DNA of 64,000 nucleotides from Sporosarcina ureae (GTDB lineage: Bacteria; Bacillota; Bacilli; Bacillales_A; Planococcaceae). The notes beneath the pieces were generated by a model. The model saw only the letters and a list, made by a program, of their open reading frames with translations, was not told where the DNA came from and made no database searches. The translations under genes were made by a program, and so were the position numbers. Location of the stretch: NCBI RefSeq assembly GCF_002101375.1, contig NZ_CP015207.1, forward strand, positions 2,248,001 through 2,312,000, written 5' to 3'. Of the stretch, positions 26,618 through 63,886 are shown one piece after another; within the stretch, counting starts at the first letter, position 1, and each line of letters starts with the position of its first letter.

Positions 26618-27429
26618 GTCGTTTCACTCTTATACACATGAACGTCTGAAGTGGATGGAATGTTGGTCTGTTGACGTTTCGCCGAGTGATACCAGCTTCT
26701 AAACAATAGAATGATCAACACGAGATCCACCGCATCGCCTCCGTAATACATAAGCATAGCTCCTACACGCGCTTCTTCAACAGGTACACCGGCAGGCGGA
26801 TAGGCATATAGGAATTTTGATAGAATTCCGTGTCCCGCAAGAGCCACAATAAAAACTACAGTGCGGTATCGGTAACTATAGCGGTGAGATACAGGATCGA
26901 TGTATAAAAGAGAAATGGTAAATAAATATCCCGCAACGAACACGTGCACATGGATCAAGATATGCAGCCAAAGATGGTGGTGCATGGCCGCAAACAACCC
27001 CGTCGTATATAACAGCCACAGTCCGCCGATGTTCAGAATGGATGCAGTGACGGGATGTGTATAGAACCCCGCGAGTCGGCTTTTTAGCAAGTAGGTTACT
27101 TTACGTGCCTGCCGAACGGGTAGTGTCCGCAGCAATAACGTCATGGGAGCGGCGAGCGCCAACAGAAGGGGGCCGAGCATGCCGAGCAAGAGATGGCCCA
27201 ACATATGCCATGTGAAAGAATCATGTGACAGGTCGGCAAGCGGTCCGACGACAGCACTTGCTGAGGCTACTACACCCGCTACCCACAACACGATCCGTCT
27301 CCGTGGCCATTTTCGCAAACGTCTTTGTCGATTGGAATGAAAGACAGCGACTCCGTATAATAGGATGGCGAGAACCGCAGAAATCCCAAATAGCCAATCG
27401 GTTACACTGATATATGAATTATGTTGCAT
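26593..27429 (-). CDS. CtaG-type cytochrome c oxidase assembly protein
   Basis: The 278-residue membrane protein has about seven helices and the conserved His of the caa3-type CtaG/YppF family (DLSHDSFTWHMLGHLLLGMLGP near residues 66-88, HHHLWLHILIHVHVFVAGYLF near 150-170). The family helps assemble cytochrome c oxidase, probably in copper delivery. It starts inside the end of the upstream DUF2243 gene, so the two are translationally coupled, a pairing also known in other Bacillales. Confidence 0.85.
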   Translation of the reverse strand: MQHNSYISVTDWLFGISAVLAILLYGVAVFHSNRQRRLRKWPRRRIVLWVAGVVASASAVVGPLADLSHDSFTWHMLGHLLLGMLGPLLLALAAPMTLLLRTLPVRQARKVTYLLKSRLAGFYTHPVTASILNIGGLWLLYTTGLFAAMHHHLWLHILIHVHVFVAGYLFTISLLYIDPVSHRYSYRYRTVVFIVALAGHGILSKFLYAYPPAGVPVEEARVGAMLMYYGGDAVDLVLIILLFRSWYHSAKRQQTNIPSTSDVHVYKSETTQNAPANY

Positions 27430-27922
27430 GAAGCATCAACCTTTCCGCCGAGCGGGCATCCCGTTGCGCGGACTTGATGAGCAACAGACCGATCACAATC
27501 ATCAAAATCGCAGAACCGTTCCAAATGATATCATACGGAACGATGTCCACGTTATAACGAATCTGATGAATGCGCATGACCTTGTGTTGAATGGTCCCGT
27601 CATATAATTGGAACGCCCCGCCCCCGAGTAACTTGCCACCCCAGAACATCTTATGCCATAGCGCATTTCTTCTACGCAAATCCGCCACCAAATACAAACC
27701 GCCCACCGTCGCAAACCAGCTGAACGCATGAAACAAACCATCCGACACCAAGCCAACCGCCACGGTAGATTTATCATAAAACTTGTGCCAATGCAGCAGT
27801 TGATGGAACAGTGTCTCATCCAAAAACGCCACAAACCCAAGGCCGAATAGTATACCGGCCCATAGATTTCTTTTCTGATAACTTTTTCGGTTCGTCCAGT
27901 TTTTCACTTTTAACTCAGCCAT
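27419..27922 (-). CDS. DUF2243 membrane protein
   Basis: The 167-residue protein has four membrane helices and the DUF2243 marks FVAFLDETLFHQLLHWHKFYD near residue 33 and FQLYDGTIQHKVMRIHQIR near 105, both His-rich, which suggests metal or haem contact. Genes of this family commonly pair with CtaG-type genes, as here (overlap of 11 bp). AAGGGAGCGGG precedes the ATG. Its upstream side faces the 21-bp array. Confidence 0.85.
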   Translation of the reverse strand: MAELKVKNWTNRKSYQKRNLWAGILFGLGFVAFLDETLFHQLLHWHKFYDKSTVAVGLVSDGLFHAFSWFATVGGLYLVADLRRRNALWHKMFWGGKLLGGGAFQLYDGTIQHKVMRIHQIRYNVDIVPYDIIWNGSAILMIVIGLLLIKSAQRDARSAERLMLHAT

Positions 27923-28021
27923 ATTTCACCCGCTCCCTTCCTTATGTATGTAGTGTTCCCTGAGGGTGCAACATTTAAAACCTGTTGTGTGGATGTTAGA
28001 CGGGGGATGAACTGGGGGCTT

Positions 28022-29106
28022 ATAGAGCGGGTAGACGTCCTCATAGAGCGCTTTTCGAAGAAGTATGATCGGACTTAGGTTGCCTATGAGCGGAAACGTG
28101 TCCTGATAGAGCGGGTAGACAGACTCATAGAGCGCTCTCCGCAGAAGTATGCTCGGATGCCGGTTGACTATGAGCGGAAATGTGTCCCGATAGAGCGGAT
28201 AGACAGACTGATAGAGCGCTCTCCGCAGAAGTATGCTCGGATGCCGGTTGACTATGAGCGGAAATGTGTCCCGATAGAGCGGATGAACGGCCTCATAGAG
28301 CGCTTCCCGCAGCAGTATGATCGGATACTCGTTGACTATGAGCGGAAATGTGTCCCGATAGAGCGGCTGAACGTCCTCATAGAGCGCTTCCCGCAGAAGT
28401 ATGCTCGGATGCCCGTTGTCTATGAGCGGAAACGTATTCCGATAGAGCGGATAGACGTCCTCATAGAGCGCTTTCCACAGAAGTACTATCGGATCTCCGT
28501 TGACTATGAGCCAAAACGTGTCCCGATAGAGCGGGTAGACAGCCTCATAGAGCGTTCTCCTCAGAAGTATGATCGGATGCCCGTTGACTATGAGCGGAAA
28601 TGTGTTCCGATAGGGCGGCTGGCCAGCCTCATAGAGCGTTCTCCGCAGAAGTATGATCGGACTTAGGTTGCCTATGAGCGGAAACGTGTCCTGATAGAGC
28701 GGGTAGACAGACTCATAGAGCGCTCTCCGCAGAAGTATGATCGGATGCCGGTTGCCTATGATCGGAAACGCGCCCCGATAGAGCGGATAAACAGACTCAT
28801 AGAGCGTTCTCCGCAGAAGTATGATCGGATGCCCGTTGACTATGAGCGGAAACGTATTCTGATAGAGCGGATAGACGTCCTCATAGAGCGCTTCCCGCAG
28901 AAGTATGCTCGGCTTCTCCGGTTGCCCATGAGCGGAAACGCGTGCTGATAGAGCGGATGAACGTCCTCATAGAGCGCACTCCACTGAAGTATGATCGGCT
29001 TCCCGTTGCCCATGAGCGGAAACACATCCCGATAGAGCGGCTGAACGGTCTCATAGAGCGCTATCCACTAAAGTATGATCGGATCCACATCCATCATAGC
29101 CAGCGG
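28022..29106. repeat. 21-bp phased word array A (about 50 words)
   Basis: Nine-base words ATAGAGCGG, ATAGAGCGC, TATGATCGG and TATGAGCGG recur every 21 bp with 12-bp variable spacers (checked starts 28022, 28043, 28064, 28085). Four words form an 84-bp higher-order unit repeated about 13 times. One interval near 28930 is 23 bp. The array fills the region between the divergent DUF2243 and glycerate kinase genes. Long open frames arise only because 21 is divisible by three; they have no ribosome sites and carry internal stops. Confidence 0.9.
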
Positions 29107-29201: not shown

Positions 29202-30320
29202 GTGAAAATTGTCATTGCCCCTGATGCATTTAAGGGCAGCTTACAGGCAGATCAAGCGGCCAACGCTATGTATAGTGGCGTGAAGAAAGTATATCCGCAT
29301 GCAGAAGTAGTCCGTTTACCCGTCGCGGATGGTGGCGAGGGAACGCTTGCTGTCCTTGTCGCGTCAACTGGCGGGACGTTGCGAACCGTATCTGTGCAAG
29401 ATCCGCTTGGTCGCACAATAGATGCATGCTTTGGTATGCTTGGTGACGGTGAGACAGCGGTCATTGAAATGGCACAGGCGTCCGGTTTGCTGTTGCTTGA
29501 GGAGCATGAACTCGATCCAATGAAAGCGTCAACATTTGGCACGGGGCAGTTAATTCGTCATGCGCTGGATATGGGTTACAGGAAAATGATCATTGGACTT
29601 GGCGGGAGTGCGACGAATGATGGGGGAGCGGGTTTGCTTGAAGCGCTAGGCGTTCGTTTCCTCTCTGATGGACAGCTATTGCGGATGAATGGGGCTACGC
29701 TTCCGTTAATCAATGAAATCGATACCTCGCAACTGGATAAACGTTTGCTGGAGACGGACATTCGCATTGCATCTGATGTGGACAATCCGTTTGTCGGTGA
29801 GCAAGGCGCGTCGTTTGTTTTCGGTCCGCAAAAAGGAGCGGATGCAGAGATGATCCTGCGTCTGGATGAAGGGTTACGACATTTGGCGGACGAAACGGAA
29901 AAGCAAATGGGCGTGCGATTGCATGCGTTACGCGGTGCAGGAGCGGCTGGGGGAAGTGCGGGTGCATTAATTGCCTATTGTGGAGCGCGTCTTGAAAGTG
30001 GAATTGATGTCATGCTCGAAGCGATGGATTTCGAAAAGCATCTCTCTTCAGCAGATTTCATTGTAACAGGGGAAGGTAAGACGGATCGGCAGACGCTTGC
30101 AGGCAAGGCATTAATGGGGATTGCAAAGCTTGCGAGGGTAGAGGATGTTCCGGTTATTGTCATTTCAGGAGCGATTGAAGAAGCAGCGCGTCAAGAGCTT
30201 CTTGTGTGGTTCACCGAATTGCATTCATTGGATGATGGAAAGAAGTCGTTGGCCGAATTGATGGCAAATGCGGCAGAGTTATTGGAAAACAAAACGTCGA
30301 TAGTCATGCAAAGTAGATAG
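29202..30320 (+). CDS. Glycerate kinase (GlxK/GarK family)
   Basis: The 372-residue glycerate kinase phosphorylates D-glycerate with ATP, feeding it into lower glycolysis. Signature points: IAPDAFKGSLQA at the start, VADGGEGT near residue 43, GLGGSATNDGGAG near 130 and VTGEGKTDRQT near 288. GTG start behind GGGAGTGTGAG. The 2-hydroxyacid (glycerate-type) dehydrogenase at 56.3 kb could in principle supply substrate, but they are not linked in an operon. Confidence 0.92.
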   Translation: MKIVIAPDAFKGSLQADQAANAMYSGVKKVYPHAEVVRLPVADGGEGTLAVLVASTGGTLRTVSVQDPLGRTIDACFGMLGDGETAVIEMAQASGLLLLEEHELDPMKASTFGTGQLIRHALDMGYRKMIIGLGGSATNDGGAGLLEALGVRFLSDGQLLRMNGATLPLINEIDTSQLDKRLLETDIRIASDVDNPFVGEQGASFVFGPQKGADAEMILRLDEGLRHLADETEKQMGVRLHALRGAGAAGGSAGALIAYCGARLESGIDVMLEAMDFEKHLSSADFIVTGEGKTDRQTLAGKALMGIAKLARVEDVPVIVISGAIEEAARQELLVWFTELHSLDDGKKSLAELMANAAELLENKTSIVMQSR

Positions 30321-32303: not shown

Positions 32304-32324
32304 GTAACAGCAATTAGATGAATT

Positions 32325-32515
32325 GGTACCCACCACGTTTAAAAGGGAATCCGCCACGAACGGAGCTGCCCCCGCAACTGAGGGCACGGACGACTATCTT
32401 GTAAAACCACTGCTTCGGCGGGAAGGAAAGATGGAAGAGCGATGTGCCAGCCAGTAGACCTGCCAGTCATCTCAGCAAAACATTCTTCGGGGTTGGAGAG
32501 TGAAAGCACAAAGCA
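32325..32515 (+). ncRNA. Cobalamin (adenosylcobalamin) riboswitch
   Basis: Seen in order: GGTACC, AAAAGGGAA, GCCCCCGCAACTG and the B12 box GCCAGTAGACCTGCC (about 32450-32464). The leader ends with a terminator hairpin 44 bp before nrdE. With cobalamin bound it should stop transcription of the B12-independent reductase, a logic known for nrd and metE in other bacteria. A B12-dependent class II enzyme elsewhere in the genome would be expected. Confidence 0.9.
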
Positions 32516-34862: not shown

Positions 34863-35287
34863 TCGCCTATGCATCCTGGAGTGGCAACACTCAGGAAGTA
34901 GCGGAATTGATTACGGAAAGTTTACAAAGTGAAGGCGTCGAAGTCGATACCTATCGTATCGGCATCGGTGTCATCCCAAACGTTAAAGAATACGACGCGC
35001 TCTGCATCGGTTCATTCACATGGGAAAAAGGTGCAACGCCCGATGAAGTAAAAGACTTCGTGGCGGACGTCGGTTACAAACCCGAGCTCGTCTATGTCTT
35101 TGGCACAGGGGATACGCAGTTTGGCGGCGACGATCTATTTTGCAAAGCCGCAGACAAGCTAGCAAAATTCTATCATTCACCTTTTGACCCACTGAAGATC
35201 GAACAAAGTCCGCGTGGTATACAAGAACAAACGGTTACGAATTGGACGAAAGGAGTGCTCGAACATTGGCGACACTTACAAGAGTAA
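34847..35287 (+). CDS. Flavodoxin in the nrd operon (NrdI-like role)
   Basis: The 146-residue flavodoxin has the FMN phosphate loop YASWSGNTQEVA near residue 9 and later FMN loops CIGSFTWEKGATPDE and VFGTGDTQFGGD. It is longer than classical NrdI (about 130 aa) and has a full flavodoxin P-loop, so it is a true flavodoxin placed where NrdI usually sits. It could supply electrons to the metal/tyrosyl cofactor of NrdF or the reductase. GTG 34847 is 6 nt from GAGGA; GTG 34841 is too close. It overlaps nrdE and nrdF at its ends. Confidence 0.85.
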   Translation: MVSFLIAYASWSGNTQEVAELITESLQSEGVEVDTYRIGIGVIPNVKEYDALCIGSFTWEKGATPDEVKDFVADVGYKPELVYVFGTGDTQFGGDDLFCKAADKLAKFYHSPFDPLKIEQSPRGIQEQTVTNWTKGVLEHWRHLQE

Positions 35288-36303
35288 AAGTACTGAATCC
35301 TGCAAACCCGAATAAGGCAACAGCTATTTTCGGTGGCGAAGCAAGCGGCATCCTAAACTGGAACGACATCGCGCACCCTCATTTCTATACATTACGTCAG
35401 CGAATCCGTTCTCTTTTCTGGACGGCGAATGAAGTCGACATGACGCAAGATGTCAAGCAGTTCTCAAGCCTGACACAAGAAGAACAATCCGCATTCCTAA
35501 AAATTATCGGCCTACTGGCGACACTTGACGGTCCACAAACTGTCATCGCAATGAAAATCGCAGACTTCACAACGGATCCTTCCGTCAAGTCGATTCTCGC
35601 GACTATTGCCGACCAGGAAAGTGAGCATAACCATAGCTACGCGTATGTACTTTCATCTGTCACGAACTTAGACAAGCAAATGGAAGCCTTTGAAATGGGG
35701 CGCACTGACGAAGTATTAATGAAGCGAAATGAACGAATTGTAGATGTCTACAATGAATTTGCGGAGAACCCGACAATCGAAACAGTTCTAAAAGCGATGG
35801 TGTATACGACATTATTAGAAGGTCTATTCTTCTACAGTGGCTTCGCATTTTTCTATAACTTAGCGCGCCATCAAAAAATGGTTGGCACATCCACGATGAT
35901 TTCGTACATCAACCGTGACGAACTGCAGCACGGTAAAGCGATCAGCGATATCTTCCGAGCAGCTTTGGCCGAAAATCCAGAGTATAACACAGACGAATTC
36001 ACGGAATGGATCTATGACCAATTCCGCCACTCCGTCGAGCAAGAAGTCATCTGGAGCCGCTATGTATTAGCAGGAATCGATGGCCTGGAGCTAGAAGAGA
36101 TGGAAGGCTACGTGAAGTATCGCGCGAACAAAATGTTGCGCATGCTCGGCTTGAGCGAAATCTATCCAGAGTTCACAGAGAATCCAATGAAGTGGATCCG
36201 CGCGTACGTCGATAACTTCGACGACACGAAAACGGACTTCTTCGAACAAACTAGCCGTCAGTACGTGAAGACTAGTGATTTGAACGGCTTTGATGATTTG
36301 TAA
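35266..36303 (+). CDS. nrdF: Class I ribonucleotide reductase, small (radical) subunit
   Basis: The 345-residue ferritin-like subunit holds all metal and radical residues: Asp in TLDGPQ, ESEH with the radical Tyr four residues after the His (HNHSY), Glu in LLEGLFFYSGF and ELQH in NRDELQHG. It makes the tyrosyl radical passed to NrdE. TTG 35266 follows AAAGGAG by 10 nt, so the frame upstream to 35242 is not used. The start lies inside the flavodoxin gene, showing coupling. The metal (iron or manganese) cannot be told from sequence. Confidence 0.92.
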   Translation: MATLTRVKVLNPANPNKATAIFGGEASGILNWNDIAHPHFYTLRQRIRSLFWTANEVDMTQDVKQFSSLTQEEQSAFLKIIGLLATLDGPQTVIAMKIADFTTDPSVKSILATIADQESEHNHSYAYVLSSVTNLDKQMEAFEMGRTDEVLMKRNERIVDVYNEFAENPTIETVLKAMVYTTLLEGLFFYSGFAFFYNLARHQKMVGTSTMISYINRDELQHGKAISDIFRAALAENPEYNTDEFTEWIYDQFRHSVEQEVIWSRYVLAGIDGLELEEMEGYVKYRANKMLRMLGLSEIYPEFTENPMKWIRAYVDNFDDTKTDFFEQTSRQYVKTSDLNGFDDL

Positions 36304-36421: not shown

Positions 36422-36885
36422 CTCATATATATGGCCAAGCGCTCATACATTCACGCTATCCGCTCATACATTTTCGCACCCGCTCAATGACCCTTGGAAA
36501 GCGCTCTATCCATCCGTTTACCCGCTCTACGTGACTCAGTATCCGCTCTATGCACTCGCTTAACCGCTCAATGTCCATCGTGGCGACTAGCCTAATCCAT
36601 CTTGAGAGAGGAGACGCTCATATATATGGCCAAGCGCTCATACTTTCACGCTATCCGCCCTATGCGACCCGGCATCCGCTCTATCCATCCGTTTATCCGC
36701 TCTACGTGACTCAGTATCCGCTCTATGCACTCGCTTAACCGCTCAATGTCCATCGCGGCGACTAGCCTAATCCATCTTGAGAGAGGAGACGCTCATATAT
36801 ATGGCCAAGCGCTCATACTTTCACGCTATCCGCTCTATGCGACCCCACGTCCGCTCTATCCACCCCCACATCCGCTCAACCCAGC
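36422..36885. repeat. 21-bp phased word array B, with 175-bp tandem duplication
   Basis: Words CGCTCATA, CGCTCTAT and CGCTCAAT (reverse complement of the words in array A) recur every 21 bp (starts 36440, 36461, then 36481, 36502, 36523, 36544), with one 20-bp step. Part of the array and a non-array insert are duplicated in tandem at a distance of 175 bp (36550 and 36725). It fills the space between convergent nrdF and the CoA-transferase gene. Confidence 0.85.
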
Positions 36886-36924
36886 CATTTACCCACCCCA
36901 CCCCCAAAAAAATCACACGAAAAA

Positions 36925-36968: not shown

Positions 36969-38513
36969 TTACTTCTGAACTTCTACAGTCTTGTGCATCG
37001 TCTTGTTTTTCGCAAGATTCACGTGCCAAGATAGCGCTTCTTCCAAGATGTGTGGAGTTTGTCCGCCAACTTGTTCAACTGCTCTATTGTAATAATCACG
37101 TAGCTCTTCCTTGAAGTCAGGGTGAGCACAGTTCTCTATCAACAATTCTGCTTTCTGTCTTGGAGCCAAGCCGCGAAGATCCGCGTACCCTTGTTCTGTA
37201 ACGATTACGTCTACATCGTGCTCCGTGTGGTCCACGTGAGAAGAGAAAGGTACGATAGATGACACGTCTCCGCCTTTTGCGTAAGACTTCGTAACGAAAA
37301 TCGCGATGCGTGCGTTACGAGCGAAGTCACCAGATCCACCGATGCCGTTCATCATGCGTGTTCCGCTAACATGTGTAGAGTTAACGTTTCCGTAGATGTC
37401 TAGCTCAAGCGCTGTGTTGAATGAAATGATACCCAAACGACGGATAACTTCCGGGTGGTTTGAGATTTCTTGTGGACGGAATACGAGTTTATCACGGTAT
37501 TTAGCGATATCGTCTTTGAAGCTGTCCAAACGCTTTTTAGATAGAGTCAATGAAGTAGCAGAAGCGAATTTCACTACGCCGTCATCGATCAAGTCGAAGA
37601 TTGCGTCTTGAAGTACTTCAGAATATACTTCGATATCTTTAAACTCAGAACTTCTCATGCCGTCAAGTACTGCGTTCGCAACCGAACCGACACCTGATTG
37701 AAGAGGCATTAGCGTTTCATCCATACGGCCCAATTTGATCTCGTCACGGAAGAAGTTCAACAAGTTGTTTGCAATCTCTTGTGTCTCTTCGTCTGGAGGA
37801 ACGATAGGGGAAGGAATATCACCTTTCTCCGTAAGAACAATTCCGACAACCTTTTTAGGGTCTACTTTGATTCCTGGTGTACCGATTTTATCTGTTGCAC
37901 TGTAAACAGGGATTTCTTTACGTTGGTTTTGAGCATCTGGAATATAGATGTCGTGTAAGCCTTCAAACTCCATAGGCGCGTTAACGTTCAATTCGATGAT
38001 GACATGCTTCGCTTCTTGAACGAAAATCGGAGAGTTACCTACAGAACCAGTCGGGATGATATATCCTTCTTCTGTAATAGCTGCTGCTTCGATGATTGCA
38101 TAGTCAACGGGTCCGATTACGCCTTGGCGAATCCATTCAGCTGTATGGGAAAGGTGCTGATCGATATAGAATGAGTCACCTGAGTTGATTTTGCCGCGCA
38201 TTGCTGGGTTACCTTGGTATGGAACACGTAAATTGATGACGTCTGCATTGGCCATTAATTCATCTACGTTCGGGCCCATTGAAGCACCAGTGAAAACGTT
38301 TACTTTAAAGTCCTCAGTTTTTCCTCGTTCTGCCAATGCCAAAGGCACCGCTTTTGCGTCTCCGGACAAAGTAAATCCACTCAGACCTAGAGACATTCCA
38401 TCCTCGATCCAAGAAGCTGCTTCTTCTGCTGTAACAATTTTATCTTTTAGTGCTTCACAACGAAGTACTTTATTTAATTCGTTTGCCACGGTATCATCCA
38501 CCTTACCTTTCAT
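36969..38513 (-). CDS. Acetyl-CoA hydrolase/succinyl-CoA:acetate CoA-transferase family
   Basis: The 514-residue class I CoA-transferase family protein is of Cat1/Ach1 type. Seen: GSVGNSP near residue 156, the oxyanion/CoA loops MPLQSGVGSVANAV near 269, the catalytic Glu in VYSEVL (Glu299) and GIGGSGDFARNA near 388. It moves CoA between acetate and succinate or hydrolyses acetyl-CoA, linking acetate with the TCA cycle. ATG 38513 has GAAAGGTAAGG-type site upstream in the minus direction. It is divergent from narG, 400 bp apart. Confidence 0.88.
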   Translation of the reverse strand: MKGKVDDTVANELNKVLRCEALKDKIVTAEEAASWIEDGMSLGLSGFTLSGDAKAVPLALAERGKTEDFKVNVFTGASMGPNVDELMANADVINLRVPYQGNPAMRGKINSGDSFYIDQHLSHTAEWIRQGVIGPVDYAIIEAAAITEEGYIIPTGSVGNSPIFVQEAKHVIIELNVNAPMEFEGLHDIYIPDAQNQRKEIPVYSATDKIGTPGIKVDPKKVVGIVLTEKGDIPSPIVPPDEETQEIANNLLNFFRDEIKLGRMDETLMPLQSGVGSVANAVLDGMRSSEFKDIEVYSEVLQDAIFDLIDDGVVKFASATSLTLSKKRLDSFKDDIAKYRDKLVFRPQEISNHPEVIRRLGIISFNTALELDIYGNVNSTHVSGTRMMNGIGGSGDFARNARIAIFVTKSYAKGGDVSSIVPFSSHVDHTEHDVDVIVTEQGYADLRGLAPRQKAELLIENCAHPDFKEELRDYYNRAVEQVGGQTPHILEEALSWHVNLAKNKTMHKTVEVQK

Positions 38514-50850: not shown

Positions 50851-51369
50851 ATGGAAGAAGCTCATTTACCACAGAAAGCTCGTGATCAATCAATTGCAGT
50901 CGCGGTGCTGACAATCAGTGACACGCGGACCCAAGCGGATGACAAGAGTGGCAAGGTGATTTGCGACAAGTTGATCGAAGCTGGACATACAGTGAAAGCG
51001 TATGAAATTTGCCAAGATGAAGCAAAGCATATTGTAGAGCGGTTATCCGCTTGGTCGTCCGATTCGTCGATTCAAGCCATGATTTTCACGGGTGGCACGG
51101 GGATTGGAGCACGGGATATTACAGTGGAAACCGTGTCACCTTATTTCACAAAACGGCTAGACGGATTTGGCGAACTGTTTCGCTTTTTGAGTTATACCGA
51201 AGATGTGGGATCAAAAGCATTGCTCAGTCGCGCAACCGCTGGCGGAATCGGATTACAGGCGGTATTTTTATTGCCGGGCTCTTCCAAGGCTGTGACGCTT
51301 GCGATGGATAAGTTGATCTTGCCGGAGTTACCGCATATTGTGCATGAACTTGGGAAACATTTGGCATAA
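50851..51369 (+). CDS. moaB: Molybdopterin adenylyltransferase MoaB
   Basis: The 172-residue MogA/MoaB-fold protein adenylates molybdopterin before metal insertion by MoeA. Motifs: TISDTRTQADDKSGK near residue 22, FTGGTGIGARDITVE near 73, and LSRATAGG near 125. TAGGAGGAATAG precedes the ATG, 13 nt after moeB. Array C begins within 22 bp of its stop. Confidence 0.92.
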   Translation: MEEAHLPQKARDQSIAVAVLTISDTRTQADDKSGKVICDKLIEAGHTVKAYEICQDEAKHIVERLSAWSSDSSIQAMIFTGGTGIGARDITVETVSPYFTKRLDGFGELFRFLSYTEDVGSKALLSRATAGGIGLQAVFLLPGSSKAVTLAMDKLILPELPHIVHELGKHLA

Positions 51370-51390
51370 TTGATGTGGGATGGTGTGGGG

Positions 51391-51714
51391 ATAGAGCGGA
51401 TAGGGTGGGCGAATGATTGGATGCGTGGGTGGATAGAGCGGGTAGCGCGGAAGTATGATCGGATACGTGGGTTGATAGAGCGGTTAGCGTGGAAGAATGA
51501 GCGGCTACGCGTGCTCATAGAGCGGATAGCGCGGAAGAATGAGCGGCTACGCGTGTTGATAGAGCGGATAGCGCGGAAGTATGAGCGGCTACGCGGCCTG
51601 ATAGAGCGGGTAGCGTGGAAGAATGAGCGGCTACGCGTGCTCATAGAGCGGATAGCGCAGAAGTATGATCGCATACGCGTGCTGATAGAGCGCTCACGCG
51701 ATATCATTGAGCGC
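51391..51714. repeat. 21-bp phased word array C (16 words in perfect register)
   Basis: Words ATAGAGCGG, TATGATCGG, AATGAGCGG and ATTGAGCGC recur at exactly 21-bp steps from 51391 to 51706 (315 bp = 15 x 21). The spacers alternate GTAGCGCGGAAG-like and CTACGCGTGCTC-like forms. It fills the gap between convergent moaB and moaC. Confidence 0.9.
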
Positions 51715-51769
51715 AACAACCACCACCACAACAACCACCCCACCATCCAACCAAAAAAACGCGCGATGT

Positions 51770-52261
51770 TTAGTCTGCGCGTTGATAATCTCCATTTTTC
51801 CCGCCCGATTTATGCTGTAGCATCGTCGGTCCGATGACCATCTCCTTGCCAGCCGCTTTACACATATCGTAAATCGTCAATGCGGCGGCAGAAGCGGCAG
51901 TCAAGGCTTCCATTTCGACACCGGTCACGCCTTTCGTTTTGACTTCGGCTTGGATTAGCACATGATAATGGGAAGATTCTTCATCAATATCCCAATCAAA
52001 TCGGACATCGACACCCGTTAAAGGAAGTGGATGGCACATGGGAATGATGGTGGACGTGTTTTTCGCGGCCATGATGGCGGCGACTTGCGCGACTGCGAAG
52101 ACGTCTCCTTTTTTATTTGTGCCATGAGTGATTTGTTCGTGGATGGATTTGTTGACACTAATGGACGATGTGGCAATCGCGGTACGTAGTGATGTTTCTT
52201 TGTCGGACACGTCGACCATTTTGGCACGGCCTTGTTCATTGAAGTGTGTAAGTTCGGACAT
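51770..52261 (-). CDS. moaC: Cyclic pyranopterin monophosphate synthase MoaC
   Basis: The 163-residue enzyme converts the MoaA product into cyclic pyranopterin monophosphate. Motifs: [14 protein letters not shown] near residue 15, [14 protein letters not shown] near 75 and [26 protein letters not shown] near 113, with catalytic Lys and Asp. ATG 52261 is 8 nt from AAAGGA; the frame runs to 52270. It is the only Moco gene on the minus strand, divergent from moeA. Confidence 0.93.
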
Positions 52262-52327
52262 GATGATCATCCTTTCGTTTCATTTCATTGTACTAGTTAG
52301 TATAACAAAAGAAAGTAGGAGATGTAC

Positions 52328-60051: not shown

Positions 60052-61905
60052 GTGATAGGGAATAAAGAAAAATGCCCATGCGGAAGCGGGGAAATCGTGG
60101 AGAACTGCTGTGGCAAAACAGAAATGCCGGGCACAAATGCAGTCCAAGAAGAATTGAAGAAAGTATTAAACAGCTATTATGAAACGTCCTTGTCTCCTGC
60201 TGAGATTCAATCATTAGAAGGATTATTGAAAGAGTGGGCTGGACGTCTCGGTGAGTGGATGGAAGAAGAGGAACTCGTGACGAATGTCAGCGATTACTAT
60301 TTCTTCGTCGTGCGGAAAGATCTTTGGAGACGCCATCTTGTAAAAGCGCTAAACCGTACACAAAATAGAGCGGTACGGGCCATTTTAAAGAGTTGGCAAA
60401 ATGTTTTCATTACATTCGCAGAAGTGACGAAGGCGGATAAAGACGTCTACCATATGAAAGAGATTCTTGGTGAAGGCGAGTATTTATTGGCAAGAGAAGC
60501 GGGTGAGCCCGAAGATGTTCGCGCTGTCGTTGCAATTGTCTTGGAAGAGATGCGCAATGAAGAGCGCTGGGTCATGCCGATTTCTGCCATTGCAGTGAAT
60601 GATCATATGAGTGATGAACTATTGACGCGTGTTCAGGAACTAGCTGAAACGAGCGAGGAAAAGAATAGTTTCAATTTCTTCAAGAAGCACCTTGTCGATA
60701 TTTATGAAGTGGTTTGCAAGTTAGACGTTCAGACGTTATCTGACGTAGTGGAGCAGAATTTCACACCATTGCAACGTGAAGTAGTGGAAATATTAGATGC
60801 TGCACTCGAGAAGGAAGAGCTACATCCGGGCGCGTATGAAATGTTACTATCCTTGCTGGCGTATTACTTTACCGACCAGAATCCGAAGTTCCGTAAGCCG
60901 GAAGTACTCGCTGCGGCGGCGTTCCAATTGGCAGTCGATACGAGTATGATGACGAATACGTATACACAAGCAGAAGTAGGTAAACTGTTCGGGGTTTCGG
61001 TCTCTTCGTTCCGAAAGCATACTGATATTCTACTAGAGAAGATTGAAGACCTCGAAAAGATGATGGCGGAAAGGCAGACCGATGCTGTGTATCATATCGG
61101 TACCAACCCCCTTCCATCTGAGCAAATGAATTGGCAAGTGCATATGTTAACGCAAAAGCATAATTTTGATTCGTTTGAAGAAGCACAAGCGTACATTCAA
61201 GAAGCGATCCAGCAGCCGTTCGAGCCGGAAAATCAACAACAAGAAGCACAGATGCTTTGCTATATGGCGTACAATGCCGAAACGATCGAGCAGCGACATG
61301 ACTTCGCAGTAGGTGCATATGGCGCTGATCCGACGAATGTCGATGCGTTGTTACTTCAGACGGAGTTGACAGATTCGAAGGACGAGCAGGAGAAGTTCTT
61401 CAAACAAGCGATATTCTCCGGTGAAAAACAATTTGACAATCGTGCGGAAGATGCGTGGAAGTTCGCACCGAATCGTCCGTATTTACGCAGCTTGATGCAG
61501 TACGGTGTGTGGTTCTATGAGCAAGACCGTTTTGTTGAAGCGAGCGACATGTTATTGCGTCTTTTATCGCTTGACCTCTTTGACCATCAAGGTGCACGAT
61601 ACTTGGCGATTTCTTCGTTGATCCATCAAGGAGAAATTGATCAAGCGGCACAGGTGCTGGAGGCGAGTGCAGAAGTTTCTAAAGATGATGCAGCGTATTG
61701 GTATTTGTCATGGTTGGTCGAGATGGAACGCGCGCAAGGTACGTCTTCAGAGCGCGCTTTAGAGTTATTCGCTAAGGCGGAGCAGTTAAATCCACATGTC
61801 AGTAAGTTGATGGAGATGGCAGTGGAGAAAATGAGTTATCCGAAGAGTGTTGCTCTTACGCCGGGTAGTCATGAAGAAGCGCACTATATTTGGTATTTAT
61901 TGTAA
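60052..61905 (+). CDS. SEC-C protein with TFIIB/cyclin-like helix-turn-helix and TPR-like C-terminus
   Basis: The 617-residue protein has an N-terminal SEC-C zinc motif (CPCGSGEIVENCC, Cys8/10/19/20), as at the end of SecA. A helical region follows, and residues about 280-335 read like a TFIIB/cyclin repeat: PEVLAAAAFQLAVD, then TQAEVGKLFGVSVSSFRKHTDIL. The last 230 residues have TPR-like helix pairs (LLQTELTDSKDEQEKFF, LAISSLIHQGEIDQAAQVLE). GTG 60052 is preferred over GTG 60043. Function is unknown; protein-protein and possibly nucleic-acid contact is inferred. Confidence 0.8.
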   Translation: MIGNKEKCPCGSGEIVENCCGKTEMPGTNAVQEELKKVLNSYYETSLSPAEIQSLEGLLKEWAGRLGEWMEEEELVTNVSDYYFFVVRKDLWRRHLVKALNRTQNRAVRAILKSWQNVFITFAEVTKADKDVYHMKEILGEGEYLLAREAGEPEDVRAVVAIVLEEMRNEERWVMPISAIAVNDHMSDELLTRVQELAETSEEKNSFNFFKKHLVDIYEVVCKLDVQTLSDVVEQNFTPLQREVVEILDAALEKEELHPGAYEMLLSLLAYYFTDQNPKFRKPEVLAAAAFQLAVDTSMMTNTYTQAEVGKLFGVSVSSFRKHTDILLEKIEDLEKMMAERQTDAVYHIGTNPLPSEQMNWQVHMLTQKHNFDSFEEAQAYIQEAIQQPFEPENQQQEAQMLCYMAYNAETIEQRHDFAVGAYGADPTNVDALLLQTELTDSKDEQEKFFKQAIFSGEKQFDNRAEDAWKFAPNRPYLRSLMQYGVWFYEQDRFVEASDMLLRLLSLDLFDHQGARYLAISSLIHQGEIDQAAQVLEASAEVSKDDAAYWYLSWLVEMERAQGTSSERALELFAKAEQLNPHVSKLMEMAVEKMSYPKSVALTPGSHEEAHYIWYLL

Positions 61906-61910
61906 TGCAT

Positions 61911-61965
61911 GCGAACCGTCATGGCGAGTTGGAATTTCCGACTTGCTGTGGCGGTTTTTTGTATG
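61911..61965 (+). terminator. Terminator-like hairpin
   Basis: ACCGTCATGGCGAGT and ACTTGCTGTGGCGGT pair with several G-T pairs and are followed by TTTTTTG. Confidence 0.6.
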
Positions 61966-62140
61966 GGCAGGGATGAGTCGGAAAGCAACGTTGATCTGCG
62001 TTTTAGGCGGATACTTCCCACACCAACTCTCTACAGTACGGATTTCGTTCATGCTGGAGTATCAAAGCGCATGCACACATCCATCAAAATTCGCTGTCTT
62101 CCGCTTACATTCAATGAATGTCGTTTTCTTTAGGGGGAAA

Positions 62141-62285
62141 TGCTCATACTTTCTTCTAAGCGCTCATACTTCCACGACATCCGCTCATAAATCGCTATAG
62201 GCGCTCTATCAATCCCCTAGAGCGCTCTATCCATCCATTTAACCGCTCTATGAAATGACACAAGCGCTCTATACCCGTTATCTAT
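62141..62285. repeat. 21-bp phased word array D (about 7 words)
   Basis: CGCTCATA and CGCTCTAT words with GCTC starts at 62142, 62162, 62183, 62203, 62224, 62245 and 62266: steps of 20 or 21 bp. Same orientation as array B. It lies between two plus-strand genes. Confidence 0.8.
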
Positions 62286-62410
62286 TGTTGACCATCAAGT
62301 GAATTTATCCCGAATATGTCTAGCTTTAAAGGAATAGGATGATATATTGTCGAACAATTCTAATAGAGACAACTGACGAAAATTATATCGAGCAGAGAGG
62401 AGTAGTTTTG

Positions 62411-63886
62411 ATGAAGCTAACTAATTATATCGACGGCATGTGGCAGGAGGAAGCTGCTAGTTATACAGCTGTACTCAACCCGGCGAACGGGGATGAATTG
62501 GCACAAGTACCTTTGTCAACGGATGAAGAGGTTCGGCGGGCGGTTGCTGCGGCGAAGGAAGCACAGAAGAAATGGGCTTTGGTGCCGGCACCGAAACGTG
62601 CGGATTATCTCTATGAAATTGGCCGTATTATGAAAGGCAAAAAAGAACATCTAGCGCAAGTACTGACGAAGGAAATGGGTAAAGTCATAGAAGAGGCACG
62701 TGGTGAAGTGCAAGAAGGGATTGACATGGCGTTCTACATGGCTGGAGAAGGTCGCCGATTGTTCGGTGAAACGGTTCCGTCTGAGTTGCAGGATAAGTTT
62801 GCGATGAGTGTTCGAGCACCGATTGGCGTTGTGGGTCTGATCACTCCATGGAACTTTCCGATTGCCATTGCTACGTGGAAATCGTTCCCGGCAATTGTCG
62901 CCGGAAATACATTCATTTGGAAACCGGCGACGGAAACGCCGTTGATGGCATATGAAATGGCGTTGATCTTTGAAGAAGCCGGCTTGCCGCGTGGTGTGGC
63001 GAATATCGTCTTTGGTTCAGGTGCAGATGTAGGCACTGCGCTGATCGAACATCCGGACGTACGGGTTATTTCATTTACCGGCTCGACGGAAACAGGACGT
63101 CACGTTGCGGAATTAGGCGGTCGCCATTTGAAGAAAGTATCTCTAGAAATGGGCGGCAAAAATGCGGTCATCGTGCTGGAAGATGCAGATATTGAACTAG
63201 CGGTAGAAGGAATTTTGTGGAGCGCATTTGGAACGGCAGGACAGCGCTGTACAGCTTGTAGTCGAGTCATCGTTCATGAAGATGTGAAAGAAGAATTGCA
63301 GAAACGTCTGATGGAGAGCATGAAAGACTTAACGATGGGCGGCGGTCTGGATGAAACGGTGAAAGTCGGTCCAGTGATCAATGAAAAGGCACTGGAGAAA
63401 ATCCAGCGCTATATCGAAATCGGTAAAAGTGAAGGTGCAAATCTAGTGGCAGGTGGAAATGTGCTGAATGAAGGGAAATTCGCGAATGGATATTATGTTG
63501 AGCCCACATTGTTTGCGGATGTCGCATGGGATAGCCGACTCGCGCAAGAAGAAATTTTTGGCCCAGTCGTTTCATTGATCACGGTCAGTAGTCTGGATGA
63601 AGCGATTGAAGTGAATAACAGCGTCGCGTATGGCTTGTCCAGTTCGATTTTCTCGCAAGATGTCAATAAAGTATTCCGCGCACAACGCGATCTGGATACA
63701 GGTATCGTCTATATCAACGCAGGCACGACAGGTGCGGAAATTCATTTGCCGTTTGGTGGAACGAAAGGGACAGGGAACGGTCATCGTGACTCCGGGGTCG
63801 CGGCACTCGATGTCTTTACGGAATGGAAGAGCATTTACATCGATTACAGCGGCAAGTTGCAACGCGCGCAAATCGATACGGAATGA
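62411..63886 (+). CDS. Aldehyde dehydrogenase, probably alpha-aminoadipate semialdehyde type
   Basis: The 491-residue NAD(P)-dependent aldehyde dehydrogenase has [12 protein letters not shown] near residue 145, the catalytic Glu in LEMGGKNAV near 251, and the catalytic Cys in [12 protein letters not shown] near 285. ATG 62411 is behind AGAGGAG; the frame runs upstream to 62339. The neighbouring partial lysine-dehydrogenase-like gene suggests that the substrate is alpha-aminoadipate semialdehyde from lysine; this rests on context. Confidence 0.85.

Follow-up and report, generated by a model that had tools for sequence, protein, structure and literature searches.

We identified, in the chromosome of Sporosarcina ureae and in those of its relatives, arrays of short asymmetric words that recur every two helical turns and lie mostly behind genes. 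The strongest feature of these arrays is that the word differs between species, while the two-turn period is retained. The phasing of the words, their conservation, their locations and their turnover at a constant period were all directly observed, starting from the 64,000-bp stretch of S. ureae DNA presented above (hereafter, the window), which contains four arrays, listed here with two of their flanking features:

28022..29084, + strand: array A, approximately 50 word slots at a 21-bp step with an 84-bp super-unit (Tandem Repeats Finder, chains)
27980..28021, + strand: G-rich 5' flank of array A (sequence; composition over 57 arrays)
36440..36886, - strand: array B, at 36.4 kb (Tandem Repeats Finder, chains, sequence)
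51383..51725, + strand: array C, at 51.4 kb, with a 42-bp dimer unit (Tandem Repeats Finder, chains, sequence)
51713..51756, + strand: C/A-rich 3' end and flank of array C (sequence, flank composition)
62141..62275, - strand: array D, at 62.1 kb, short (sequence; chains at 62190-62273; lag-21 test)

In array A, Tandem Repeats Finder detected a period of 84 bp (4 × 21) with 12.6 copies, and 35 of the approximately 50 slots hold an exact GAGCG in chains, in agreement with the initial annotation, which had described about 50 words and an 84-bp super-unit. The self-match of array A is 0.42 at lag 21, compared to a mean of 0.25 and a maximum of 0.29 in 200 base shuffles, and 0.80 at lag 84. The matching arrays that had been noticed at 36.4, 51.4 and 62.1 kb are likewise borne out: the lag-21 self-matches of arrays B, C and D are 0.46-0.48, each greater than in all 200 shuffles (maxima of 0.33-0.36). 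By Pfam assignment, array A occupies a divergent gap, flanked by the genes for a DUF2243 protein (- strand, 27419-27922) and glycerate kinase (+ strand, 29202-30320). Array B, which includes a 175-bp tandem duplication (36502-36862), and array C occupy convergent gaps, the former between the genes for the ribonucleotide reductase small chain (+ strand, 35242-36303) and acetyl-CoA hydrolase (- strand, 36969-38513), and the latter between a MoCF-domain gene (+ strand, 50851-51369) and moaC (- strand, 51770-52270). Array D lies upstream of an aldehyde dehydrogenase gene (+ strand, 62339-63886), with its words on the opposite strand. The initial description of all four arrays as intergenic is mostly correct, with two qualifications: array D overlaps the end of a 117-aa ORF (61847-62200), a probably spurious frame that shares sequence with a larger gene, and an open frame of 169 aa (28157-28666) lies within array A.

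Several other elements were observed in the window. The only Rfam match at gathering score was a cobalamin riboswitch (RF00174, 81 bits; 32306-32481, + strand), away from the arrays and upstream of an operon whose last gene encodes the ribonucleotide reductase small chain, a position that is as expected if the genome has a B12-dependent alternative enzyme. Positions 1-23000 contain many small + strand ORFs and are free of GAGCG arrays; of six proteins tried from this region, four matched PHROGs families (one a cation efflux protein, the other three without a known function). A different dispersed repeat (GATCTGCGTTTTAGGCGG-like, near ...CAGGCGGACGC...) is located at approximately 61989-62025, and occurs beside arrays, or replaces them, in several gaps.

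In the 3,353,765-bp contig, the pattern GAGCG-N16-GAGCG-N16-GAGCG had 461 overlapping matches (207 forward and 254 reverse), compared to 0 forward and 0 reverse matches of the same pattern with the letters reversed, showing that the 21-bp word arrays are real and larger in scope than initially claimed. The genome-wide excess of 21-bp spacing is also evident in an 864-kb sample that consisted of 40 spaced 20-kb stretches and the window, where GAGCG yielded 26 array calls, corresponding to 25 distinct places, and five other 5-mers used as array words yielded none. The sampled 2.1-2.7 Mb region was array-rich, and array-free runs extended over 6 consecutive sampled 20-kb stretches at 1.26-1.70 Mb and over 7 at 2.77-3.29 Mb.

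Across 262 distinct units, the motif is S-WWW-GAGCG-S-W-T-R, where 95-100% of the units have A or T, with no fixed letter, at each of positions -3 to -1, and approximately 8 positions of the unit contain almost no information. There is thus a conserved word, as initially proposed, but it is degenerate and longer than nine bases (approximately 13 bp, with approximately 8 free bases). When the phase was filled in, GAGCG was present in 338 of the 378 slots in the 864-kb sample, the commonest departures being GATCG and GAGCA. Among 872 distances between neighbouring words in the S. ureae clade, 730 were 21 bp, 41 were 20 bp and 41 were 42 bp, with off-phase distances of 18 bp (12 cases) and 48-50 bp (13 cases). 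A spacing of exactly 21 bp, as originally stated, therefore applies to most distances but not to all, and array A itself contains a 2-bp slip between 28862 and 28948.

The words are asymmetric and lie on the same strand throughout any one array. Polarity was also observed in base composition: among 57 arrays, a count that includes orthologs in relatives, the 5' flanks are G-rich (45% G in the last 10 bp compared to 22% at 120 bp), the 3' flanks are rich in A and C, and the composition of the spacers moves from G to C along the array. This polarity of flanks and spacers is its own reverse complement; we report it without an explanation.

We compared the locations of the arrays to those of ORFs identified with a simple custom script. 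Of the 25 array places, 24 overlap no ORF of at least 90 aa by more than a few bases, and the exception (L036:19079) overlaps a 97-aa ORF. After removal of ORFs located to at least 40% inside an array, the 23 array gaps in the 864-kb sample were typed as 11 convergent, 10 tandem and 2 divergent, compared to 41 convergent, 200 tandem and 83 divergent among 324 array-free gaps of at least 100 bp. Convergent gaps were significantly more frequent among array gaps (11/23 vs. 41/324, p = 1 × 10−4), and divergent gaps were scarce (2/23 vs. 83/324, per-array p = 0.08). In tandem gaps, the words were opposed to the gene direction in 7 cases and along it in 3, and 12 of the 25 places were on the leading strand, with the strand switch judged by eye from GC skew. 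One array that was examined closely is flanked by the apparent terminators of two convergent genes. The placement of the arrays behind genes on either strand indicates that they act as DNA rather than as RNA.

The PlsY protein of this genome matched contigs of Sporosarcina sp. P32b, S. ureae DSM 2281, P34 and P2 at 97-99% identity, which places the host in Sporosarcina near S. ureae. Of 37 pairwise alignments of arrays, 4 were clean, being either free of gaps or interrupted only by indels that span 1-2 bp or entire units (P2, S. ureae and P34 at L033:6249, and G229 at window position 62190). In these clean orthologous pairs, 94 of 95 core positions were identical, compared to 115 of 152 spacer positions (p = 8 × 10−8), supporting the original observation of conserved words among variable spacers, and the long indels were 42, 63 and 147 bp. 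The pooled identity over all 37 alignments was 0.92-0.99 at core positions and 0.66-0.77 at spacer positions, where the remaining 33 alignments were anchored by the words and their indels were often not multiples of 21. Comparison of the arrays within the 864-kb sample showed 65-75% identity among the 25 longest pairs listed, about the level expected from the words alone. Given that only this word-level identity is shared, the arrays are not copies of one another, and dispersal of whole arrays as mobile units was rejected.

Two gaps beside or near acnA hold arrays in the S. ureae clade wherever the contig reaches; in S. aquimarina S/N-308-OC-B4 and its neighbours, the corresponding gaps are empty and short (90 and 56 bp vs. 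304 bp in one case, and 122-126 bp vs. 324 bp in the other). Within the S. ureae clade, the array length at orthologous gaps varies, and several arrays have been re-expanded from different units with the words retained. Given this gain, loss and re-expansion among close species, no single array appears to be essential. In one genome of this set (G230, loci L188-L193), ATAGAGCGG and ATAGAGCACTC strictly alternate, for example, in the ortholog of array C (L190), possibly representing a word change under way; the same genome has no array in the gap orthologous to array D. The GATCTGCGTTTTAGGCGG-like repeat mentioned above is found in that gap in G230, as well as in the acnA gaps of L106 and L110.

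We further searched for arrays in other genomes. In the family, the three-word GAGCG pattern was found in 116 of 261 genomes and the four-word pattern in 85, with genome-specific flanking letters; at the class level, the five-word pattern was found in 18 of 398 genomes, 8 of these outside the family, where several of the matches look like coding or simple repeats. The family and class counts include some genomes without true arrays, in which single matches are coding-like or simple repeats. The reversed-letter control had matches in some relatives; in the 10 that were searched, the places listed (all of those in G004, G033 and G034, and some of those in G057) correspond to arrays of a GCGAG word, and the loci examined in the others appear similar. 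In G033, G034 and G057, GCGAGTATT arrays replace GAGCG, and those of G033 and G034 are locally almost uniform with locus-specific spacers. Of 13 GCGAG arrays with neighbours on both sides, 6 were convergent, 6 tandem and 1 doubtfully divergent, and 5 of 15 distinct GCGAG arrays overlap an ORF of at least 80 aa. Other words follow the same spacing: ACCGCGC at a 21-bp step in Sporosarcina sp. P13; TTATGAGCGG at 20 bp, mostly with TTATGATCAC, in Sporosarcina MER 20, ZBG7A, D27, NCCP-2716, S. gallistercoris and others; and CTATCCGGTCATAA, with steps that alternate between 20 and 21 bp, in Psychrobacillus faecigallinarum.

Among 33 GAGCG-free genomes, 8 contained, in the sampled 20-kb stretches, a noncoding array with a 20-21-bp step and a different word (10 were flagged at first, of which G206 and G253 were set aside as low complexity or another repeat). 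Periods of 20-21 bp accounted for 19 segments in the GAGCG-free genomes, compared to 7 for ten control base periods combined, and the words included GTGTSCAAC, TATGATYGGTC, AGTGCAAGC, TAATAGACAAT and AAGCCGATTAAA. In a pattern search, 13 of the 68 genomes from the genus had the CCAAC/GCAAC type, with a maximum of 94 + 82 matches in one genome; the window's genome and ten close relatives (G193-G198, G228-G231) had no match. Both the GAGCG and the CCAAC types were observed in G191, and two unrelated-looking array words lie less than 4 kb apart in G203 (L210:10549-10757 and L210:14255-14730). A genome may have more than one binding protein.

The counts of segment periods are based on a word-free lag scan of noncoding sequence. 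Periods of 21, 42 or 63 bp were found in 54 of 58 segments from the S. ureae clade, including orthologs in relatives. In the rest of the family, 28 of 32 segments had periods of 20-21 bp or multiples (25 of 29 when three doubtful segments are excluded); among the ten period-20 segments outside the S. ureae clade, seven come from one place in related Sporosarcina, and L117, L118 and L120 (near 570) are A/T-rich and doubtful. In other Bacilli, the fraction was 3 of 5 segments, two of the three being adjacent, and in 627 kb of Bacteroidota loci it was 0 of 5. Some arrays mix 19-, 20- and 21-bp units with a mean of 20.3-20.5 bp, which points to helix phase rather than one fixed duplication length as the retained property. 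Periods of 20-21 bp were also seen outside the family (G462, G596, G604, L255 of G438 and L260 of G612), some with other words, among them TTCGGTAA (21-bp step) and ATTACAGCTTA (20-bp step); such arrays may be more widespread in Bacilli.

Comparison of the harmonics of A+T content to those obtained after permuting the unit columns in 15 word sets shows that, among the first five, only the second harmonic, corresponding to one helical turn, was enriched (combined p = 1.6 × 10−5, a generous value given that the sets were hand-picked and partly related). Individually, the one-turn signal had p < 0.1 in 8 of the 15 sets and not in the other 7. Words of different letters thus tend toward A/T patches approximately one turn apart around a G/C-rich core. 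This pattern fits a protein that touches the minor, major and minor grooves on one face, and is also compatible with DNA prepared for wrapping. Predicted curvature, calculated for 17 arrays with a wedge table, was 56.7 compared to 40.3 in shuffles (mean z = 1.9), a modest excess of intrinsic curvature that is not decisive.

The reading that we prefer, and to which we give about an even chance, is that the arrays are sites for one or more sequence-specific proteins bound head to tail on one face of the DNA behind genes, with the word drifting by lineage. Such a protein would read one asymmetric word of approximately 9-13 bp, contacting the G/C-rich core in the major groove and the A/T patches approximately one turn away on each side. 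Adjacent molecules would sit head to tail, 20-21 bp (two helical turns) apart on one DNA face, and the spacers would be free. The role would likely be structural, either a nucleoprotein patch that shields or organises the DNA between transcription units or one that holds supercoils at gene ends, and lineage-specific words would appear if the specificity of the protein drifts or if related proteins substitute for one another. We infer protein binding, cooperativity and function from several observations: words are retained where spacers are free (338/378 slots; 94/95 core vs. 115/152 spacer positions), the period in the lag scan is approximately two turns irrespective of the word, A+T is enriched at one turn, convergent gaps are in excess, and the long indels are 42, 63 and 147 bp. 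Counting against this reading, drive or biased conversion could retain words too, off-phase distances occur, the A+T signal is absent in 7 of 15 sets, and the flanks are unexplained.

An alternative that we regard as unlikely is that the arrays are platforms for wrapping or supercoils, that is, anisotropically flexible DNA favoured by gyrase or another wrapping protein, where the letters are secondary to helix-phased A/T and the arrays are a Firmicute counterpart of BIME-2. The once-per-turn A+T peak across dissimilar words, the lack of a strand rule and the somewhat increased predicted curvature are consistent with such a role, although a two-turn period by itself raises predicted curvature to some extent. 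In E. coli, gyrase sites are over-represented in BIME-2 and have flanks whose GC content varies with a 10.75-bp period (PMC6379681), and REPs, like the arrays, are frequent between convergent genes (PMC1525189). However, wrapping alone would not preserve GAGCG exactly while the spacers change, and the gyrase signal at E. coli BIME-2 rises once transcription stops, and hence does not originate from transcription of the neighbouring genes (PMC6379681). The protein-site reading and the wrapping role may both be partly true.

It is also improbable, in our assessment, that the arrays are satellite DNA without a host function, in which a seed word is amplified by local tandem duplication or slippage and kept by drive, conversion or recent growth, with gene ends being the places where this does the least harm. 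Such an origin would account for the re-expansion from different units in close relatives, for the locally almost uniform arrays with locus-specific spacers in G033 and G034, for the gain and loss of arrays between clades, and for the scarcity of arrays in divergent, promoter-bearing gaps (2/23 vs. 83/324, with the per-array p of 0.08). It does not account for old arrays that keep their words though the spacers are unrelated, nor for the higher conservation of the core compared to the spacers between species, and under neutral duplication, unrelated words would not be expected to share a 20-21-bp period.

Direct-repeat operators are bound by ordinary transcription regulators such as AraC-like proteins, and operators of a regulator of this or the LytTR kind would be a very unlikely identity for the arrays. 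LytTR regulators (of the AgrA and LytR type) bind 9-bp direct repeats separated by 12 bp (PMC2766830), the same geometry as 9-bp words with 12-bp spacers and within the 12-13-bp spacer range of LytTR operators, and the window's genome has 3 LytTR proteins. However, the arrays are located mainly behind genes, with only 2 of 23 gaps divergent, and comprise up to approximately 50 words each and hundreds per genome. Moreover, LytTR, the only family tested as a candidate, does not discriminate, because its proteins were found in 20 of 20 genomes examined regardless of the word.

An RNA element, with the array transcript as the active form, was rejected as highly improbable: folding is slightly stronger than in shuffles for array C (z = −1.4) but no stronger for part of array A (z = +0.8), which is no convincing fold excess, no Rfam match coincides with the arrays, the words follow no strand rule (7 against and 3 with the genes in tandem gaps), and helix-phased spacing has no obvious meaning for RNA. 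We can practically dismiss the coding of a coiled-coil heptad protein (21 bp being seven codons), despite one frame that reads [IYFL]-E-R-[ILM] with few stops (31 in 2646 codons), the 169-aa open frame in array A and the coding appearance of many viral contigs with the pattern (80 examined of at least 120 stretches), because the synonymous change GAG to GAA is rare (none of the 378 slots in this genome and 4 of 517 slots from relatives), the residue-changing GATCG and GAGCA are common, and periods of 20 and 20.3-20.5 bp elsewhere are not multiples of three and break the frame.

More broadly, and somewhat more tentatively, we propose that the arrays form a chromosome-wide system of sites defined by geometry, at gene ends in Planococcaceae and perhaps in other Bacilli, with one or more lineage-specific words, where a fast-evolving family of DNA-binding proteins would form short filaments with a role in topology or insulation. 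Such a system, should this tentative proposal hold, would parallel satellite DNA and its binding proteins, which change together. Known families of bacterial intergenic repeats are recognised by sequence, whereas here the sequence shifts within one genus and the two-turn spacing stays; a search by sequence would miss such arrays, given that the sequence changes between species while the spacing is kept. Should the words be read by a protein, that protein would be a new site-specific nucleoid factor whose specificity differs by lineage, and its natural variation would allow the coevolution of protein and sites to be tested directly in harmless soil bacteria; if the arrays are wrapping platforms, Firmicutes would gain a BIME-2 analogue. 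In either case, searching by period instead of letters may uncover further repeat systems. The initial annotation had suggested a possibly undescribed chromosomal repeat system, and this still appears to be so: no account of such arrays was found in the literature searched, a scope that left out most subscription papers and all bioRxiv preprints.

Comparison with known systems shows both likenesses and differences. STAR elements of Staphylococcus are intergenic direct repeats of variable number and unknown function; their signature and spacing are longer than those of the arrays. CRISPR arrays consist of repeats of approximately 25-40 bp with spacers of similar length and are accompanied by cas genes, and were rejected by unit size (a motif of approximately 13 bp and a free part of approximately 8 bp). 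Chi of B. subtilis is AGCGG; replication polarity of the Chi or KOPS type was rejected given that 12 of the 25 places are on the leading strand. Plasmid iterons are direct repeats approximately two turns apart that are bound by an initiator, whereas the arrays are chromosomal and occur in many places, with hundreds of matches, and the neighbour genes of the window arrays are metabolic or DUF2243, so that an iteron origin was rejected. A plasmid or phage origin was rejected as well, since array A had no match in 72,556 plasmid records or in a phage collection. A scan of viral sequences for the pattern yielded at least 120 stretches, and the 80 examined (L261-L340) contain 82 arrays of at least 4 words, of which 28 lie outside ORFs of at least 600 bp; judged by eye, simple repeats, repeats of short ORFs and cut ends make up most of these, and two of the examined stretches (L290 and L308) resemble Sporosarcina-type arrays.

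Bacterial minisatellites (VNTRs) resemble the arrays in growing and shrinking by whole units, but array spacers diverge where words do not, and unrelated words have one period; a simple minisatellite, with even divergence along the unit, was rejected by the core and spacer identities given above (94/95 vs. 115/152). LytTR operators share the 21-bp spacing, but consist of two repeats at promoters, unlike arrays of up to approximately 50 words, mostly behind genes and with hundreds of matches per genome. The letters of REP/BIME elements are species-specific. REPs are palindromes of 20-40 bp (PMC3733652), and REP/BIME elements resemble the arrays in their high copy number per genome and in an extragenic location that is often between convergent genes (PMC1525189; 11/23 vs. 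41/324 gaps for the arrays). However, REP units are palindromic, whereas the words of an array are asymmetric, on the same strand and two turns apart, and the two folds made give no sign of hairpins of the REP/BIME kind (z of −1.4 and +0.8). Strong gyrase sites, as described in PMC6379681, share with the arrays a helix-phased base composition across tens of bp, observed here as the second harmonic (p < 0.1 in 8 of 15 sets), but their flanks are described there without a letter-for-letter word and with a period of 10.75 bp compared to 20-21 bp. Any assignment of the arrays to a kind is least secure with regard to function and binding partner. If all bacterial intergenic repeats are counted as one kind, the arrays would be a new variant within it; otherwise, they would be a new kind, given that they lack at least one tested defining feature of each named family except the gyrase site.
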